Assembly: GCA_902524105.1 (NCBI GenBank)
Contig: CABZCD010000004.1
Location: forward strand, 1-42,160
Reading direction: 5' to 3'
DNA length: 42,160 nucleotides
Source: an uncultured Pelagibacteraceae bacterium
GTDB lineage: Bacteria; Pseudomonadota; Alphaproteobacteria; Pelagibacterales; Pelagibacteraceae
Shown here: piece after piece, positions 3,318-13,282 of the stretch
How positions within the stretch are numbered: position 1 is the first letter of the stretch
Layout: every line of letters begins with the position of its first letter
Made by a program: the position numbers and the translations under genes
The notes under the pieces: model-generated
Database searches by the model: none
Told to the model about the DNA's origin: nothing
What the model saw: only the letters and a program-made list of their open reading frames with translations

Positions 3318-4345
3318 TTAAGTTCAAGTTTTTTATCCTCTACAATAGCATTGATCATACTAAGCATTAAAGGTAATTTTTTTTCATCAAAATCCTCATT
3401 AACTTTTTTTGCAATTTCTTTTGCCAAATCAGCTCCCTCAACTGTAACATTTTCCATTTTTGTTTTTTTTGCCTCTGAAAATGTTAAGCCTTCCCCAATA
3501 TAAGCTCCCATTTTAGCATTTCTTCCACCACCAGTACTAACATATAAATCACCTAAACCTGCTAAGCCTTTTACTGTTTCTTTTTTTCCTTTTAAATGTT
3601 CAACAAATACTTCCATTTCATGTATCGATTGTTTAATTAATGCTGAGGATGTGTTTAAATAATTTTTCTCTCTTACATCATTCGAAATATCTTTACCGCA
3701 CAAACCTTTTGCTGAGCCAACCGCCATAGAAAATATATTTTTGATAGCAGCAGAAACCTCTACGCCATTTAAATCGTCAGAAAAAGACGTGTGGTAATAA
3801 TTTGTATTTAACATTTTAGCAATTTTTTTCGCGGTTTTTATATCTTCATTAGCAATTACAACACTACTATGAACCCTGTTGGCTAATCCAGAGGCAAGAC
3901 AAGGGCCACCTACGGCTGAAATGTTAATTTTATTAATACCTTTATCAGCCAATAATCTTTTAAGCTTATCAACTAATAACTCGTAATTATTATTGTAAAT
4001 GCTCAAACCTTTTGTGAGCATAAGTATATCAGGTATTTTTTTGTTTTTATAAATTATACTTAATTGTTCAGAAACCCATTCAATTCCTTTTGAACTTATT
4101 CCTAAAACGATTAAATCGACTTCGATATTTAATAAGTTATTCAAATTTTCAAATTTATGTACTGCAACTTTTTTATCTATTTTTATGTTTAATCCAGGAT
4201 GAAGATTGTCGTTACTTTTTAAATTATCGATAAAATCATTTTCTAAGTGCGTTCCAACTATATTGACCTCATGTTTGTTGTCTAAGCATGGTAAAGAAAA
4301 AGCTGTTCCCATCGCACCAGCACCGATTATAATAATTTTTGACAT
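3299..4345 (-). CDS. NAD(P)-dependent glycerol-3-phosphate dehydrogenase-like protein (GpsA family, divergent)
   Basis: 348 aa; IIIGAGAMGTAFSLPC Rossmann motif, GVEVSAAIKNIFSMAVG catalytic-Lys region, GLAGLGDLYVSTGGGRNAKMG. Confidence 0.8.
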   Translation of the reverse strand: MSKIIIIGAGAMGTAFSLPCLDNKHEVNIVGTHLENDFIDNLKSNDNLHPGLNIKIDKKVAVHKFENLNNLLNIEVDLIVLGISSKGIEWVSEQLSIIYKNKKIPDILMLTKGLSIYNNNYELLVDKLKRLLADKGINKINISAVGGPCLASGLANRVHSSVVIANEDIKTAKKIAKMLNTNYYHTSFSDDLNGVEVSAAIKNIFSMAVGSAKGLCGKDISNDVREKNYLNTSSALIKQSIHEMEVFVEHLKGKKETVKGLAGLGDLYVSTGGGRNAKMGAYIGEGLTFSEAKKTKMENVTVEGADLAKEIAKKVNEDFDEKKLPLMLSMINAIVEDKKLELKWELFG

Positions 4346-5770: not shown

Positions 5771-6547
5771 TTATCTATTGGCGCTTTTTTGTCTTTTAAT
5801 TTCACTTTTAATTCTATTTACCAAACTTCTGTTGCTGTCAAATAATAATCTTATTTTAATTTTTGTATTTCGTTTTATCGTGAGACTTTTTACATTTCTT
5901 AGTTCTATGTTGTCGGCTACTGCAGCTATTGGTCTTTTTTTTGAATTTAAATTTTTAATTTTCACAATTGATTTGTTTGAAATGATTTTTCCTTTCCATC
6001 TTCTAGGTCTAAAAGGGCTTATAGGAGTTATGGCTAACTTTCCAGAATTCAATGATAAAACGGGGCCATGAACTGATAAATTATAAGCTGTGCTTCCAGC
6101 AGGTGTTGATACAAGCACTCCATCACCTATAAGTTTTTTTATAACCTGTTTTTGTCCGATAGAAATATTTAGTGAGGCAGTCTGTTTACTTTGTCTAAAA
6201 ATAGAAATTTCATTTATTGCTATTAAATGTTTTTTCATACCTTTTCCGTATGAGCAATTTACAGATAAACTATTTATAGTAGTTTTTTTTGACTTCATTA
6301 TTTTACGTTCTAAAAGATTAATATTTGAATTGTTCATTAAAAATCCATACGAACCACAATTTACACCATAGAATGGTTTGTTAAATTTGTAATATCTTTT
6401 TAAGTTTTTCAACATAAAGCCATCTCCACCGAAAACCACAATGTTAGATGCTTTAAAAGGGGAAAAATTTTTAAACTTCTTTGACAATTTTTTCTTAAAG
6501 TTTTGTGATTTTTTATTTTTATCAAAGATAAAATGAAATTTTGTCAT
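5771..6547 (-). CDS. nadK: NAD kinase
   Basis: 258 aa; FGGDGFMLKNL (GGDGT-like), GVNCGSYGFLMN, DGVLVSTPAGSTAYNLSVHGP. Confidence 0.92.
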   Translation of the reverse strand: MTKFHFIFDKNKKSQNFKKKLSKKFKNFSPFKASNIVVFGGDGFMLKNLKRYYKFNKPFYGVNCGSYGFLMNNSNINLLERKIMKSKKTTINSLSVNCSYGKGMKKHLIAINEISIFRQSKQTASLNISIGQKQVIKKLIGDGVLVSTPAGSTAYNLSVHGPVLSLNSGKLAITPISPFRPRRWKGKIISNKSIVKIKNLNSKKRPIAAVADNIELRNVKSLTIKRNTKIKIRLLFDSNRSLVNRIKSEIKRQKSANR

Positions 6548-6552
6548 ATTAA

Positions 6553-6608
6553 TGGTGCCCTCGGCCAGACTCGAACTGGCACTCCCAAAAGGGCAAGGAT
6601 TTTAAGTC
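6553..6608 (-). repeat. partial tRNA-Leu 3' half; distal attachment-site copy (direct repeat of 7344-7399)
   Basis: 56 bp identical to 7344-7399 (tggtgccctcggccagactcgaactggcactcccaaaagggcaaggattttaagtc), offset 791 bp. Reads from anticodon loop to CCA; no 5' half present. Confidence 0.93.
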
Positions 6609-6701
6609 TCTTTCCCTTTTATTAATGTTGATATCTTTAAATTTTTTCATCCACTTTCTTTCAATGTGCACTAATAGCACAAATAATGCACTTATTCATT
6701 T

Positions 6702-7292
6702 TCAACAATAATCAGGATAATACTCAGCTTTAACCTTATAAATACCCTTTATTTTTTTAGTATTAATTTTTTCATATCCTTTAATTACTTCTAAATTAAA
6801 TGGATTGACTATTGAAAAATCAAATACTTTATTATTAACAAAGTATCCTACTAGAAGTTTGTTATCATAATCAATAATGCTACTACCAACGGACCTCATT
6901 TGTTTACTAATATCAATCTTCTCTTCATCATACAGTAAAATTTGACCATCATTATAAACATTGGACTGATTTATAATTGCTACAGTAAATTTATTATTAT
7001 ATTCATATGGAATACTAATTTTTCTTTGTTTATTTATAGAAATTTGTTTCACTTCAAAATTATTATCTAATGTCTTGGTAATATTTATTGTTGAAGACTT
7101 ACTTCCAAATAATATTTCTGATGGATTGCATTTTAAAATTTTAGAGAGTTCAACAGCATTTATTGAGCTGATTTCTCTATTATTTTTAATCCATCTATTA
7201 ACAGTGGCTGGGTCCCTCCCCAACTTTTTTGCAAGCTGAGCCTGACTCATGTTTAAATCAAATAATTTTTCTCTCAGGAAATTTCTTGACAT
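6702..7292 (-). CDS. XRE-family HTH regulator with degenerate S24/CI-like C-terminal domain
   Basis: 196 aa; N-terminal HTH MSQAQLAKKLGRDPATVNRWIKNNREISSINAVELSKILKCNPSEILFG. C-terminal ILLYDEEK...NKLLVGYFV...VNPFNLEVIKG...IKGIYKVKAEY resembles S24/LexA-CI C-domains. Confidence 0.8.
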   Translation of the reverse strand: MSRNFLREKLFDLNMSQAQLAKKLGRDPATVNRWIKNNREISSINAVELSKILKCNPSEILFGSKSSTINITKTLDNNFEVKQISINKQRKISIPYEYNNKFTVAIINQSNVYNDGQILLYDEEKIDISKQMRSVGSSIIDYDNKLLVGYFVNNKVFDFSIVNPFNLEVIKGYEKINTKKIKGIYKVKAEYYPDYC

Positions 7293-7297
7293 ATAAT

Positions 7298-7333
7298 CAA
7301 TTTAAATTGTATAATATACAATTAGATTGTCAA
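7298..7333 (-). promoter_or_regulatory. predicted promoter and operator of the XRE regulator
   Basis: Minus-strand TTGACA (7333-7328), 16-bp spacer, TACAAT (7311-7306). 19-bp perfect palindrome AATTGTATA-A-TATACAATT at 7305-7323, plus 12-bp palindrome CAATTTAAATTG at 7298-7309. Start codon at 7292. Confidence 0.6.
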
Positions 7334-7343
7334 GATGTTTTTG

Positions 7344-7429
7344 TGGTGCCCTCGGCCAGACTCGAACTGGCACTCCCAAAAGGGCAAGGATTTTAAGTCC
7401 TTTGTGTCTACCAATTTCACCACGAGGGC
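7344..7429 (-). tRNA. tRNA-Leu (anticodon UAA), CCA encoded
   Basis: Reverse complement GCCCTCGTGGTGAAATTGGTAGACACAAAGGACTTAAAATCCTTGCCCTTTTGGGAGTGCCAGTTCGAGTCTGGCCGAGGGCACCA. Acceptor GCCCTCG/CGAGGGC pairs; anticodon stem AAGGA/TCCTT with loop CTTAAAA; long variable arm; GTTCGAGTC T-loop. Confidence 0.95.
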
Positions 7430-7498
7430 TTTAGTCATATTTTGTTGATATTGTTAATATATTAATACACAAGAGTTTTAAAGAAGTAAAAAAAAATT

Positions 7499-8242
7499 TT
7501 ATCTATTAATTTTGCGAAAATCTTTTGAAACATCTCCCCAATGACATCTGGGAAAAAATGGAAAACTATCTGTAGCAAAATACCTATAATTACCATCAAA
7601 TACTCTACCATTGCACTCATCTAAATCACCGCTGCCATCTATAAATTCGTAATCCTGTTTAAATGATCCATCATATTTACCAAAAGGTTTAATTTTTCTA
7701 TTTCCTTTTTTAAGCTGCCATGAAGTTTTAAACTTTCCAGGTATATATAAAATTTCAAATCCGTCGGCTGCATAACCAATTAATGATTGTCCATTTAATA
7801 ATAATGATGAATTAGGTTTGTGGTAATGATAAAGTCCTCTAAAGTCTAAATGACCGTTATATTCATCAATTCCAAATATTTTTTCAAAAGGTCTAATTGC
7901 TTCCAAATTTAATCCAGATGATTGATTTTGACTATGTTTTTTAGGAGAACTTTCATCAAACCAAGCTGCGGTGCTTGGTCTAATTGGAATGCCAGAAAGA
8001 GTAACACCAACTGTGGAAACAATATATCTTGAGGTTTTTTTCTTCGCTGGTTTTTTTGAAAAACAAAATTTTAAATTTTGTTTTTTAAAAATATTTGGGT
8101 TACCTTTTGTTGGGAATTTTCCAATTTTATGATTTGGAACTCCATTTGAAATAATGCATTTTTGTTCTGAGGATTGTATAACAGTGCTTTTAATGGTTAG
8201 TAAAAAGCCAAACAAAATAATTAAATAATTAATTCTTTTCAT
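7499..8242 (-). CDS. secreted YHYH-domain protein
   Basis: 247 aa with signal peptide; FRGLYHYHKPNSS, IGYAADGFEILY, GDLDECNGRVFDGNYRYFATDSFPFFPRCHWG match the YHYH-protein pattern. Confidence 0.75.
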   Translation of the reverse strand: MKRINYLIILFGFLLTIKSTVIQSSEQKCIISNGVPNHKIGKFPTKGNPNIFKKQNLKFCFSKKPAKKKTSRYIVSTVGVTLSGIPIRPSTAAWFDESSPKKHSQNQSSGLNLEAIRPFEKIFGIDEYNGHLDFRGLYHYHKPNSSLLLNGQSLIGYAADGFEILYIPGKFKTSWQLKKGNRKIKPFGKYDGSFKQDYEFIDGSGDLDECNGRVFDGNYRYFATDSFPFFPRCHWGDVSKDFRKINR

Positions 8243-8268
8243 TTTTTTCCATAGAATTAACTGAAAAA

Positions 8269-9477
8269 CTACCCTTTGACACTACCAGATGTAAGGCCAC
8301 TAACCAAATATTTTTCAAAATATATAAAAATAAAAAGCACTGGTAGGGTAACTATAACAGATCCAGCCATTAAATATTGGCGCGGAGTTTCCGCATCCCC
8401 ACTTAAATATTGAATAGCCCTCGATAAAGTAAATGATTTGGGACTATCTAAAAACATTAAAGAAAATAGAAATTCATTCCATGCTATCATAAAAACATAT
8501 AGTGCTACCGATGCAATCGCTGGTAAACTTAGTGGAATAATAATTTTTAGAATAATGCCAAACCAATTTTGGCCATCCATGATACCTGCATCTTCAATTT
8601 CTTTAGGAATACTTTTAAAATACCCTTGCAACATATAAATAGCTACTGGAAGTGTCGTGGCTGTATAAACTATCAATAGACCAAAAATTGAGTTTCTTAA
8701 TCCTAGTTGACTAAATACAGTATATAACGGAATTACTAAAACTATAGCTGGAAACATATAAATAATTAAAATTGAAGTTGATAAAAAATTTTTACCAAAG
8801 AAATTTAACCTTGCAACTGCGTAAGCTGCTGGAATTGCAAATAACAACGTAACAATAACTGTTCCGATAGAAACAGCTGAACTTATTAAAATGTATCTAC
8901 CAAAATTATAAGTTTCAAAAATTACAAAATAAGATTTAAATAATTCTGGCAAACTTTTAGAGTAGTCTAGACTAAAATCGAGTGGATTGACTAATAAAGC
9001 AATTTGAGTTTTGAAGCTTGTAACTAGCATAATATAGAACGGAAATAAAATTACAAAAGCAAAAAAAACAATTCCAAACAAAGTGATAAAATCAAAGATA
9101 ATTTTTTCGGATATGAAATCTTCAGTTAAAGATTTTGTATCATATTTTTTTAATTTATTTGTAAAAAATAGTATTATTAAGAAAACTCCAAATATATACC
9201 AAAAAGGAGATGTTTCATTAAAGTAAAAATATAAAAAAGAAAATAAAAATGATAGTGAAAATATTTTAATTAAGTGATTAATTCTTTTTCCAATTAATAC
9301 AAATAATAAAGATAAAATAATACCATTAAAAAAGTTTCCTGTGATATTAAGATTCGTAAAGTTTAAACCTTGAAGCGTAGACATGATTTTCCAAATCGAC
9401 AAAATGGATGTAAGAAAAAAAGATGAAATAACCAAAAATATTGTTGTAGATTTAAATTTCATTTGCTTTTTTCCCAA
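8269..9477 (-). CDS. sugar ABC transporter permease (MalG-like) with extended N-terminal TM region; start probably 9462
   Basis: Binding-protein-dependent permease motif EIEDAGIMDGQNWFGIILKIIIPLSLPAIASVALYVFMIAWNEFLFSLMFL. About 125 aa of additional hydrophobic N-terminal sequence. Confidence 0.88.
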   Translation of the reverse strand: MGKKQMKFKSTTIFLVISSFFLTSILSIWKIMSTLQGLNFTNLNITGNFFNGIILSLLFVLIGKRINHLIKIFSLSFLFSFLYFYFNETSPFWYIFGVFLIILFFTNKLKKYDTKSLTEDFISEKIIFDFITLFGIVFFAFVILFPFYIMLVTSFKTQIALLVNPLDFSLDYSKSLPELFKSYFVIFETYNFGRYILISSAVSIGTVIVTLLFAIPAAYAVARLNFFGKNFLSTSILIIYMFPAIVLVIPLYTVFSQLGLRNSIFGLLIVYTATTLPVAIYMLQGYFKSIPKEIEDAGIMDGQNWFGIILKIIIPLSLPAIASVALYVFMIAWNEFLFSLMFLDSPKSFTLSRAIQYLSGDAETPRQYLMAGSVIVTLPVLFIFIYFEKYLVSGLTSGSVKG

Positions 9478-10711
9478 TTAGTCTAAAATAAATAATCATA
9501 AATGATAAAAGCAACATCACTATAACAATTGAAACAGCAGAACCCATTCCAATATCTGAAACAGCAAAGCCTTGCTGATAAACATTTATAGGTAACGTTC
9601 TTGTTCCAGATGCTCCACCAGTTAATAAAAAAATATCTTCAAATTTATTAAAGTTCCAAATAAATCTAATCATAAACAAAATAGAAATAATCGCTGTAAT
9701 TTGAGGAAGTGTAATATGTATAAATTTTTGAACTGGACTTGCTCCGTCTACTTCTGCTGCTTCATATAAACTTTGTGGAATAGCTTGTAATCTGGCTAAT
9801 ATAAAAAGAAAAGCTAGAGGAAAATAACGCCAAATTTCAAAAAATATAACTGTTGTTAATGCCAACCTTAATTTGAAATCAAATCCAAATATACTTATTG
9901 TAATATATTTTTGGCCTAATAAATTAATTGGTGACTCAATAATATTAAAGTTAACCAATAGAGCATTTAAAGTTCCACTATTAGGATCTAGCAATAATGT
10001 CCAAGTATAAGCTAATGCAACAACAGGGCCTACATATGGAAAAAGAAGAATGCCACGCATATAAGATCTCCCTTGGATGTTTTGATTTACCAATTGCGCC
10101 GCTAAAATCCCAAAAATTATTGCACCCACTGTACCAAAAAAAGTGAAGTAAAATGTAGTTGAAAGTAAATCAATAAAATTATTTTCGTAAAAAACTTTTT
10201 TAAAGTTTTCTAGAGTAAAATTTGTTGTTAGTAATGGATTATCTGATTTTCCACTTAAAATTGGTTTTTGAGATTTTATTATTTCTTTTTTAATTTTTTC
10301 ACCATCTATATTTTTTAATATTATTTCAAAATTTTCTTTATATTTTGCTTCCCAATTTCCAAAATCACAAATGATCTTTTTAGATTTAAAATTACATCTT
10401 GAGTCTAAATTTAATATTGAAATATTTTTAGGAAATTTATCTTGGAATTTAACATTTCTTATTTCTTGAATTAATGAACTATTTCTTAATTTATAAACAA
10501 TTTTTAATTCTGACCCATCATCAGAAAAAGATTTAACGATTTTTTTAGCTCTAGGTTCTGGAATTCTTATATCTTTTAACTCAATATCTTTAAAACTTAT
10601 CCAAATATTTGCAAATATTGGAAATAATACAATTGCGAAAACTAACAAAACTGCTGGTAAGACTAGAGTGTAAGCAGTTCTTTTTTCTAATTTTAATAAT
10701 GTATTGCTCAT
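9452..10711 (-). CDS. sugar ABC transporter permease (MalF-like) with periplasmic insertion domain
   Basis: EAAEVDGASPVQKFIHITLPQITAIISILFMIRFIWNFNKFEDIFLLTGG EAA motif; about 100-aa soluble insertion after TM1. Confidence 0.88.
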   Translation of the reverse strand: MSNTLLKLEKRTAYTLVLPAVLLVFAIVLFPIFANIWISFKDIELKDIRIPEPRAKKIVKSFSDDGSELKIVYKLRNSSLIQEIRNVKFQDKFPKNISILNLDSRCNFKSKKIICDFGNWEAKYKENFEIILKNIDGEKIKKEIIKSQKPILSGKSDNPLLTTNFTLENFKKVFYENNFIDLLSTTFYFTFFGTVGAIIFGILAAQLVNQNIQGRSYMRGILLFPYVGPVVALAYTWTLLLDPNSGTLNALLVNFNIIESPINLLGQKYITISIFGFDFKLRLALTTVIFFEIWRYFPLAFLFILARLQAIPQSLYEAAEVDGASPVQKFIHITLPQITAIISILFMIRFIWNFNKFEDIFLLTGGASGTRTLPINVYQQGFAVSDIGMGSAVSIVIVMLLLSFMIIYFRLIGKKANEI

Positions 10712-10714
10712 AAT

Positions 10715-10747
10715 AAAAAGCGGATAATAAAGTATTATCCGCTTTTT
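10715..10747. terminator. strong intergenic hairpin (attenuator or terminator-like) between binding-protein and permease genes
   Basis: AAAAAGCGGATAATA-aag-TATTATCCGCTTTTT: 15-bp perfect inverted repeat, 3-nt loop, A/T tracts on both sides. Confidence 0.8.
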
Positions 10748-10760
10748 ATAAATTTATTTT

Positions 10761-12089
10761 TTAAAACTTAGCTAATTCAGCGTTTATTTTATTAACCGCT
10801 TCATCAACTGAGATTTGATCATCTATGTATTCTCTGGTGATTCTATTTAAGAACTGAGAATTAATGATTTTCGATGCTCGAGAAAGTTCACCCTCTTTAA
10901 CTCCCCATCTGTTTGCAGTATCTAAACCAGCAACAATGTTATCAATAACATCTGCAGAATACAGGTCAGTTAATGGTGCCTTTCTATCAACACCTACAGG
11001 TAATTTACTCCATGCTTTCGTGTAAGCACTTGGGTCACTCTTGTTTCCTCTTCTTACAGGAAATTTTCCTTCAGGAGCTATTCCTAATGTCGCTGTATAT
11101 CCCTCGCTCATTGAATACTCTATGAATTTTTTAGCTTCGTCAGTATCTGCATCTGCTGTTATTCCAAAGTATCTTACATCAGCCCAAGCAGCTCCTTTTT
11201 TATTATTTGGTCCACTAAAATTAGTAATAAAACCAGTTTTAGAGGCTAGCTCTGGTGAAGTAGGATCATTATTTATTGTTGGAGGAGCAGAGTCTCTTAA
11301 TCCTGCTAACTCATCCATTATAAATGGAGACCAAATAACCATTGGTGTTTTTCCAGCGAAATATAAAGCTCTAGATTGTTTCCAGAACAATTCTCCAGGA
11401 GGACTTGCTTTAGCAATTACTTTGTAAAATTCTAGAGAATTTTTTAATGCTTTACCCTGCTTTTTAGTTCCACCTTTTTTAACAAAGTTAACTCCATTTG
11501 CTAAAAGTACATGCTCTAATACTTGACTCATAAAGTTTTCATCTGTTTTGGTAGCTGCAACAAATCCAAACATGTCATTACTTGATAATGTATTTACAGC
11601 TTTGACAATATTTGCATATGATGTTGGTGGTTCTAATCCAGCCTTTGCAAATAAATCTTTTCTATAAACAACCATTTGTGTCCAACCATCAACTGGAACA
11701 GCTGCAATTTTTCCACCTTTCTTAGCCATATTTAATGCGCCTGGTGCAAATGTTTTTTTTCCCAAAGACTTAACAACATCATTATTTGCATCTACATCTA
11801 ATATGCCTGCTTCAGCCCATGGCAAAACATATTGTAGAGTGTGATAAATAACATCTGGCAGATCTCCCGCTGCAGCAGCTGCAGTAGCTCTTGTTCCAAG
11901 ATCTTTTTCCTCAATTGGTATGACTTCAACTTTGATGCCTGTTTTTGCTTCAAAGGCTTTGGCCATTTCCCCTTGCTTTGCCATTCTCTCTGGTTGGACT
12001 TCTGTTGTCCAAAATTTAATATCTGCAAAACTAGTATTAAAAATTAAAAATACTATTACAAATATACTAATTAAGATTTTTTTAATCAT
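10761..12089 (-). CDS. sugar ABC transporter substrate-binding protein
   Basis: MIKKILISIFVIVFLIFNTSFADIKFWTTEVQPERMAKQGEMAKAFEAKTGIKVEVIPI...; start at 12089 preferred over the track's 12146 because of the signal peptide and an upstream GGGGG RBS. Confidence 0.9.
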   Translation of the reverse strand: MIKKILISIFVIVFLIFNTSFADIKFWTTEVQPERMAKQGEMAKAFEAKTGIKVEVIPIEEKDLGTRATAAAAAGDLPDVIYHTLQYVLPWAEAGILDVDANNDVVKSLGKKTFAPGALNMAKKGGKIAAVPVDGWTQMVVYRKDLFAKAGLEPPTSYANIVKAVNTLSSNDMFGFVAATKTDENFMSQVLEHVLLANGVNFVKKGGTKKQGKALKNSLEFYKVIAKASPPGELFWKQSRALYFAGKTPMVIWSPFIMDELAGLRDSAPPTINNDPTSPELASKTGFITNFSGPNNKKGAAWADVRYFGITADADTDEAKKFIEYSMSEGYTATLGIAPEGKFPVRRGNKSDPSAYTKAWSKLPVGVDRKAPLTDLYSADVIDNIVAGLDTANRWGVKEGELSRASKIINSQFLNRITREYIDDQISVDEAVNKINAELAKF

Positions 12090-12199
12090 ATAACCCCCTT
12101 TTTTTATTGCCTTAAATCTAGCAGTGTAATAAATTTTTAACAACAATTAATGTTATACTGTTACACAAGAATTGGTTAAAATCCTTAGAATTTTTATAA

Positions 12200-13252
12200 A
12201 TGTCAAAAATTGTTATTAAAAATCTCGAAAAATCATACGGTGATAATAAGGTTATAAGTAATTTTAATATTAATATAAATGATGGAGAATTTATTGTTTT
12301 AGTAGGTCCCTCAGGTTGTGGAAAATCTACTTTATTAAGAATGATATCAGGACTAGAGAATATCGATCAAGGAGAAATTTTTTTAGATCAAAAATTAATA
12401 AATAATCTACTTCCTTCTAAACGTGAAATAGCAATGGTTTTTCAATCCTATGCTTTATACCCACATATGAATGTTTTTGAAAACATGTCCTTTGGCTTAA
12501 AAATGGAAAAAATTTCAAAAAGTGAAATTAATCAAAAAGTTAATAATGCTGCAGCAATACTTCAAATTGAAGATTTACTTGAAAGAAAGCCTAAACACCT
12601 TTCAGGTGGACAAAAACAAAGAGTTGCTATTGGTAGAGCAATCACGAGGAGTCCTAAAGTTTTCTTATTTGACGAACCATTATCGAATCTTGATGCCGCT
12701 TTAAGATCTGAAATGAGGGTTGAAATATCTAAGCTGCATGAAAAAATGAATTCAAATATAATTTATGTAACACATGATCAAGTCGAAGCAATGACCTTGG
12801 CTGATAGAATTGTAGTTCTTAACAAGGGAAATATCGAACAATATGGAACACCTAATGAGATTTACTCAAATCCAAATAATATTTTTGTTGCAGAATTCAT
12901 TGGATCACCAAAAATGAATATAATTAAGATTAATAAAGAACACATTGTGAATTCAAACACTTTGCACTTGTTCAATAATAAAATAACTTTTGATAATATA
13001 GAATTTAAAGATGAGATTTATCTAGGTATTAGACCTGAAGATATAAGCTTAGAAAGCAATCTTGAAATCGAATTAGAGGTAAAAATTGATCTCGTAGAAA
13101 ACTTAGGGTTTGAAAAAATTATTTATTCTAAGGTTTCAAATAATCAAATTATTATTAAATCATCAAAAAATATTAGTAGCAATTCACTGAAAGTATCTTT
13201 TTCAAAAAATAAGGTATTATTTTTTAACAAACATAAAAATAGGATTAGATAA
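12200..13252 (+). CDS. sugar ABC transporter ATP-binding protein (MalK/UgpC family)
   Basis: Walker A GPSGCGKST, signature LSGGQKQRVAIGRA, Walker B VFLFDEPLSNLDA, H-loop YVTHDQVEAMT, C-terminal TOBE-like GIRPEDI. Confidence 0.95.
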   Translation: MSKIVIKNLEKSYGDNKVISNFNININDGEFIVLVGPSGCGKSTLLRMISGLENIDQGEIFLDQKLINNLLPSKREIAMVFQSYALYPHMNVFENMSFGLKMEKISKSEINQKVNNAAAILQIEDLLERKPKHLSGGQKQRVAIGRAITRSPKVFLFDEPLSNLDAALRSEMRVEISKLHEKMNSNIIYVTHDQVEAMTLADRIVVLNKGNIEQYGTPNEIYSNPNNIFVAEFIGSPKMNIIKINKEHIVNSNTLHLFNNKITFDNIEFKDEIYLGIRPEDISLESNLEIELEVKIDLVENLGFEKIIYSKVSNNQIIIKSSKNISSNSLKVSFSKNKVLFFNKHKNRIR

Positions 13253-13282
13253 TTTCTTTTGGATAAGTTCTAATATTTAATT

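Follow-up and report, generated by a model that had tools for sequence, protein, structure and literature searches.

CIMEs (cis-mobilizable elements) have been described as decayed ICEs or IMEs that keep attL and attR (PMC5704250). A phage strategy has been named tRNA-dependent lysogeny in mycobacteriophages, in a description that makes no mention of a tRNA intron or of a satellite (PMC10865867).

The locus considered here lies in a stretch of 42,160 nucleotides from an uncultured Pelagibacteraceae bacterium (contig CABZCD010000004.1), referred to below as the window; its genome, G000 in our sample, is 67% complete. SAR11 bacteria are regarded as streamlined, with few mobile elements. Between the gene for tRNA-Leu(UAA) and nadK, the window carries a 735-bp insert that we interpret, with a probability of roughly 0.78, as a minimal non-autonomous integrative element whose junction copies a prophage attR and which would be moved by the integrase of a helper-type phage.

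The tRNA-Leu(UAA) locus and its native state

The first-pass annotation of the window described a 56-bp duplication of the tRNA 3' half around a 735-bp spacer; the exact direct repeat, the tRNA found by ARAGORN and the list of open reading frames bear this out. The repeat covers tRNA nucleotides 31-86 and the spacer (6609-7343) contains a single sizeable open reading frame (Table 1). Identity begins at nucleotide 31. This point lies two bases outside the anticodon loop, on its 5' side, and coincides with the left end of the 9-bp core GACTTAAAA of the phages presented below.

Table 1. Position of the insert, its ends and its neighbors in the window.
Feature	Position	Strand	Basis and remarks
nadK, conserved neighbor marking the native site	5771..6547	-	Pfam and relatives
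Displaced original tRNA 3' half, attR-like junction beside nadK	6553..6608	-	Exact repeat; coincides with the place of the native tRNA 3' end of relatives
Putative crossover core GACTTAAAA, 9 bp, tRNA nt 31-39, anticodon loop	6600..6608	-	Identical to the common core of phage attP sites
Phage-type P arm, element right end	6609..6691	-	Aligns with sister elements better than shuffled controls do, and marginally so with the L247 prophage arm
Three putative integrase arm-type sites GTGCAT / GTGCTA / GTGCAC	6666..6691	-	-83, -72 and -63 from the core; same positions in L255
Cargo gene, 196 aa, HTH_3/XRE N-terminus	6702..7292	-	Pfam; similarity to P22 C2 repressor
Perfect palindrome ATTGTATATTATACAAT, putative operator	7306-7322		Overlaps the predicted -10 box
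Predicted promoter TTGACA-16-TACAAT	7306..7333	-	Sequence; the consensus scan as such did not exceed chance
Element left end, 56-nt tRNA 3' half	7344..7399	-	Exact repeat; halves differ in sisters L244 and L255
Intact tRNA-Leu(UAA)	7344..7429	-	ARAGORN and empty-site relatives; chromosomal 5' half with a 3' half that would be element-borne, functional attB rebuilt

Approximately 100 genus genomes possess both tRNA-Leu(UAA) and nadK, and in most of them a few bases separate the end of the tRNA from nadK. The empty sites that had been sought, with the tRNA directly before nadK, exist in the closest relatives, where the order is tRNA, 5 bp and nadK. The displaced 3' half of the window likewise ends 5 bp before nadK; because relatives keep their sole tRNA 3' end at this place, the copy at 6553 is read as the original and the copy within the intact tRNA as the one that arrived with the element. 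The exact identity of the two copies had been taken as a sign of recent integration. This argument fails, since the 86-nt tRNA sequence is identical in nearly all genus genomes and a perfect 56-bp match therefore gives no date. The existence of empty-site relatives also runs counter to the possibility that all relatives would carry both copies with the same spacer. An assembly duplicate is not credible either, as independent genomes display the same architecture with other cargo.

None of the 151 genus genomes searched encodes a PF00589 integrase at the tRNA-Leu locus, and the sole PF00589 protein of G000 is Xer-sized. Inserts of 0.9-2.1 kb with no detectable tRNA fragment also occur between tRNA-Leu and nadK (L062-L068 and L070-L074), several of which resemble sugar- or methyl-transfer enzymes.

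The cargo gene of the window

The C-terminus of the 196-aa protein has no match. Among solved structures, those closest in sequence with a genuine HTH match are chains of the P22 C2 repressor, and the gene may encode a self-regulated repressor of the phage type. Whole-protein relatives were absent from the genus and order sample, the viral contigs, the genome contigs and the phage records, and a search across the SAR11 family returned weak matches restricted to the HTH range, at 24-36% identity. The XRE element is missing from all other genus genomes tested. The comparison of the 735 bp with phages, suggested at the outset, yielded no match among phage records. A single-sequence AlphaFold model of the protein (mean pLDDT 36) was too poor to use.

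Sister elements in SAR11

Within the genus, a 3'-half fragment downstream of the tRNA is found in G000 and G101 only; these two genomes have the core-adjacent sequence in common and differ in cargo. In another SAR11 genus, the fragment is also present in G243 and G280. A displaced half can be separated from a whole tRNA by a search pattern with A instead of G before GACT, which matched one viral contig and 12 genome loci, every one of the latter in a record with the title Pelagibacteraceae or Candidatus Pelagibacter. Counts by genome and by locus overlap, L246, L250 and L251 being taken as G243, G101 and G280, respectively. An integrase lies beside the junction in two of the 12 genome loci and in the viral contig; none is found at the junction in the other 10. 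Eight of these 10 integrase-less elements have both ends on one contig and measure 317-1191 bp. Seven display an intact tRNA and a complete displaced half (L244, 1106 bp; L245, 390 bp; L246, 317 bp; L250, 1027 bp; L251, 1191 bp; L252, 1099 bp; L255, 426 bp), the eighth (L253, 631 bp) retains the intact tRNA with a displaced half truncated by the end of the contig, and in L248 and L254 the sequence breaks off on the tRNA side.

The cargo varies from one element to another and the right end is common to them, consisting of three GTGC sites 10-11 bp apart, GACTTAAAA and the tRNA 3' half. PDC-S02 candidate defense nucleases are encoded by L244, L250 and L252, a NOV_C/DUF3427 protein with PDC-S36 and PD-T4-1 matches by L251, small putative lipoproteins by L245 and L246, and other small proteins by L248, L253 and L255. 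L250 and L252 have PDC-S02 proteins at 94% identity and nadK proteins at 74% identity, a disparity that points to horizontal transfer of the cargo. The two 3' halves are not the same in L244 and L255, where the copy inside the intact tRNA departs from the displaced one, as would be expected if the element brings its own 3' half. Separately, a degenerate tRNA-Leu-like stretch lies just before the GTGC sites, upstream of the arm, in L244, L251 and L252; that of L251 reads GGTAGACGTGAAGGACTTATGGTCTACC and contains a 7-bp inverted repeat.

The attachment arm

The GTGC sites occupy the same positions relative to GACTTAAAA in the window element and in L255 (-83/-72/-63), the cargo of which is unrelated. 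They are found at -85/-74/-64 in L245, L248, L253 and L254, at -95/-84/-73 and -96/-85/-74 in the prophage junctions L249 and L247, and at about -96/-85/-75 in free phage forms (IMG/VR), where GACTTAAAA and then unrelated sequence follow. In the uncultured phage Deep1-GF2-KM23-C739 (KT997847), they fall inside the end of the integrase gene, at -84/-73/-64. The number of GTGC sites per locus exceeds that of dinucleotide shuffles in most loci, not in all (P 0.0005 to 0.073), and their positional match is the stronger argument.

Arm alignments were controlled with letter shuffles, not dinucleotide shuffles. The arm of the window element aligns best with other mini-elements (scores of 87 with L250, 70 with L245 and 69 with L246, for a null of 44) and just above the control with prophage L247 (48), a marginal value not to be pressed. 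Its exact core-proximal arm had no match in the viral contigs. A score of 107 was obtained between L255 and KM23, for a 99.5% null of 36, and we conclude that at least one sister element, L255, retains the 3' end of a phage integrase gene as a non-coding fossil, together with half of attP.

This near identity of the L255 arm with a phage integrase gene end and attP gives some substance to the first-pass proposal of a stripped-down prophage, which proves only partly right. Taken further, it would make the window insert a dead remnant, no longer mobile, from which everything was deleted except the attR end and one regulator; the phage-repressor-like cargo and the absence of the element from all other genus genomes tested agree with such a fate. 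We judge it unlikely, on account of the left end, where a rebuilt tRNA stands in place of a phage attL with its P' arm, of the many elements combining common ends with unrelated intact cargo, of the near-identical PDC-S02 genes in divergent hosts, and of the arm sites, whose matched positions independent decay would not preserve. The arm bears equally on a swap of cargo by homologous recombination, without any site-specific step. The tRNA halves and nadK do supply homology for such an exchange, and other cargo is found between tRNA and nadK with no repeat among L062-L074; nevertheless, homologous exchange would not create an arm with phased GTGC sites adjoining the core, nor a repeat that starts precisely where the phage core does, and its probability appears very low.

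Helper-type phages and prophages

Larger elements, for which the first-pass annotation had suggested a search, and prophages are present at this site. The same arm and core adjoin an integrase in SAR11 podophages and in prophages at tRNA-Leu(UAA). Contig C27 of G556 contains a podovirus prophage of at least 26 kb with terminase, head, tail and internal virion proteins, among which matches to terminase, major head and tail families were recovered; its integrase sits at the prophage edge that faces nadK, ahead of the tRNA 3' half found there. G558 displays a similar arrangement and L170 provides a matching 5' (attL) junction. The integrases of these 3'-type phages and prophages are 347-366 aa long. 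The phage attP has only the 9 bp of GACTTAAAA in common with the tRNA, followed by unrelated sequence; with so short an overlap, the tRNA gene is split upon phage integration.

Among the 10 phage records longer than 10 kb that encode an integrase, seven carry an intron-bearing tRNA-Leu(UAA) and two an intronless one. The group I intron is placed in the anticodon, after GGACTT, and may shield the phage tRNA copy from the integrase. In L153-L165, G186, G187 and G577, the phage tRNA-Leu(UAA) gene is interrupted inside the anticodon by a group I intron (RF00028), halfway through the attachment core of the phage itself. Viral contigs with the exact 3' half had been candidates for attP sites and were rejected, as they correspond to tRNA-Leu genes of phages that contain a group I intron. 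In L159, after position 3974 on the reverse strand, an intron-bearing tRNA-Leu of phage type is followed by sequence resembling the start of nadK, as if a phage tRNA copy had replaced the host gene. Two successive arms are found in phages L289 and L290, of which the outer resembles the arms of mini-elements more than those of other phages; this arrangement would fit an exchange with elements as well as a phage lineage supplying the arm of those minis.

A proposed route of movement

The attachment site of the element would comprise a P arm with three GTGC sites, GACTTAAAA and the tRNA-Leu 3' half, as does the attR of the podovirus prophages. A phage tyrosine integrase, provided by an infecting phage or by a prophage, would bind the arm and the core, with strand exchange taking place within the core. 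The element would thus enter the tRNA gene, rebuild the tRNA with its own 3' half and shift the original 3' half toward nadK. Recombination of the elements by such an integrase is deduced from these junctions, and the same applies to the route of transfer, for which two schemes may be envisaged. By accretion, a phage would integrate in the rebuilt tRNA and generate the order attL - phage - attR1 - element - attR2; an ordinary attL x attR2 reaction would then release a composite of phage and element, which would be packaged. Alternatively, the phage integrase would act in trans. Of the readings offered in the first-pass annotation, the evidence favors that of a very small non-autonomous element mobilized in trans; mobilization in cis, by way of a tandem arrangement, is equally plausible. 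The element is attR-like at its right end and has at its left end a rebuilt attB. Lacking a P' arm, the elements would need a reaction of the attB x attR type for stand-alone integration. Such a reaction is not canonical for well-studied integrases. No composite of phage and element was found in the viral contigs, and no circular form of the element was seen.

Cassettes of the 5' type upstream of the tRNA

A distinct set of cassettes occupies the other side of tRNA-Leu, in the window (7430-13282), in L069 and L099 and in about 40 other genus loci, sometimes in tandem. These 5'-type cassettes are composed of an AGTCTC-repeat arm, one or two genes, a conserved promoter and the tRNA 5' half (nt 1-39). 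The YHYH gene of the window matches a G067 cassette at 86%, and its sugar ABC transporter is also encountered in the 6.9-kb cassettes of L085-L087. In L167 (7799 bp, with repeated ends) and L186, the tRNA 5' half and an AGTCTC-like arm precede a 545-549 aa integrase, to which L167 adds a primase-like protein; both are probable autonomous partners of the 5'-type cassettes.

The window element shares its locus and its anticodon-loop crossover with many of these cassettes, and might itself be regarded as a member of this family inserted in the reverse sense. We consider this extremely improbable: the arm motif differs, the other half of the tRNA is carried, and the integrases of autonomous relatives belong to a different family (545-549 aa versus 347-366 aa).

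Significance and comparison with known systems

In a limited search of the open-access full-text literature, no comparable sub-kilobase elements were found. If the phage integrase is borrowed, the minimal non-autonomous element proposed here would permit cheap swapping of single genes at one fixed site, several of these genes being candidates for defense. The element family unites integrase-less elements, tRNA-dependent lysogeny and defense cargo, which are usually studied apart, constitutes a testable case for the minimum size of a site-specific mobile element, and suggests why phages encode tRNAs and why an intron sits at precisely this place. A broader proposal, which we advance tentatively and hold to be somewhat doubtful, is that of a previously unrecognized class of ultra-small phage parasites, one gene and a few hundred bases in size, which would depend solely on an attR captured from tRNA-splitting SAR11 podophages, would travel by accretion as packaged composites and would often carry anti-phage genes directed against competitors of the helper, the helpers shielding their tRNA by an intron in the core.

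Like CIMEs, the element has neither integrase nor transfer genes (one XRE open reading frame, no PF00589 at the locus) and is flanked by repeats of its integration site (PMC5704250). CIMEs may move in tandem with an integrase-bearing element (PMC5704250), as the accretion scheme would have it for the element. Unlike CIMEs, it does not keep both attL and attR of an autonomous relative: its junction matches a phage attR, its left end is a rebuilt attB without P' arm, and the elements measure about 0.3-1.2 kb. The integration-module-free ssrA islands of Dehalococcoides are similarly integrase-less, with repeats of an RNA-gene 3' end and integrase-bearing relatives adjacent, whereas they involve serine recombinases, a tmRNA target, far larger sizes and no phage (PMC3146451). 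As phage satellites such as P4 and PICI do (PMC8628076, PMC11389934), the element would depend on a phage for movement; in contrast to them, it encodes no integrase, replication or hijacking genes of its own. Tycheposons are also tRNA-anchored variable islands of streamlined marine bacteria, and they span 4-200 kb with a tyrosine recombinase (PMC10872708), compared with 735 bp and no recombinase here. Integron cassettes and CALIN have attC sites, whereas the ends of the element are a tRNA half and a phage-like arm. Finally, the helper-type phages conform to tRNA-dependent lysogeny, with a short core (about 10 bp; here 9 bp in the anticodon loop), a tRNA that is not rebuilt and, in most of them, a tRNA of the same isotype (PMC10865867). 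The SAR11 system departs from it in that the element itself would rebuild the tRNA and in that most phage tRNA copies bear an intron in the core.
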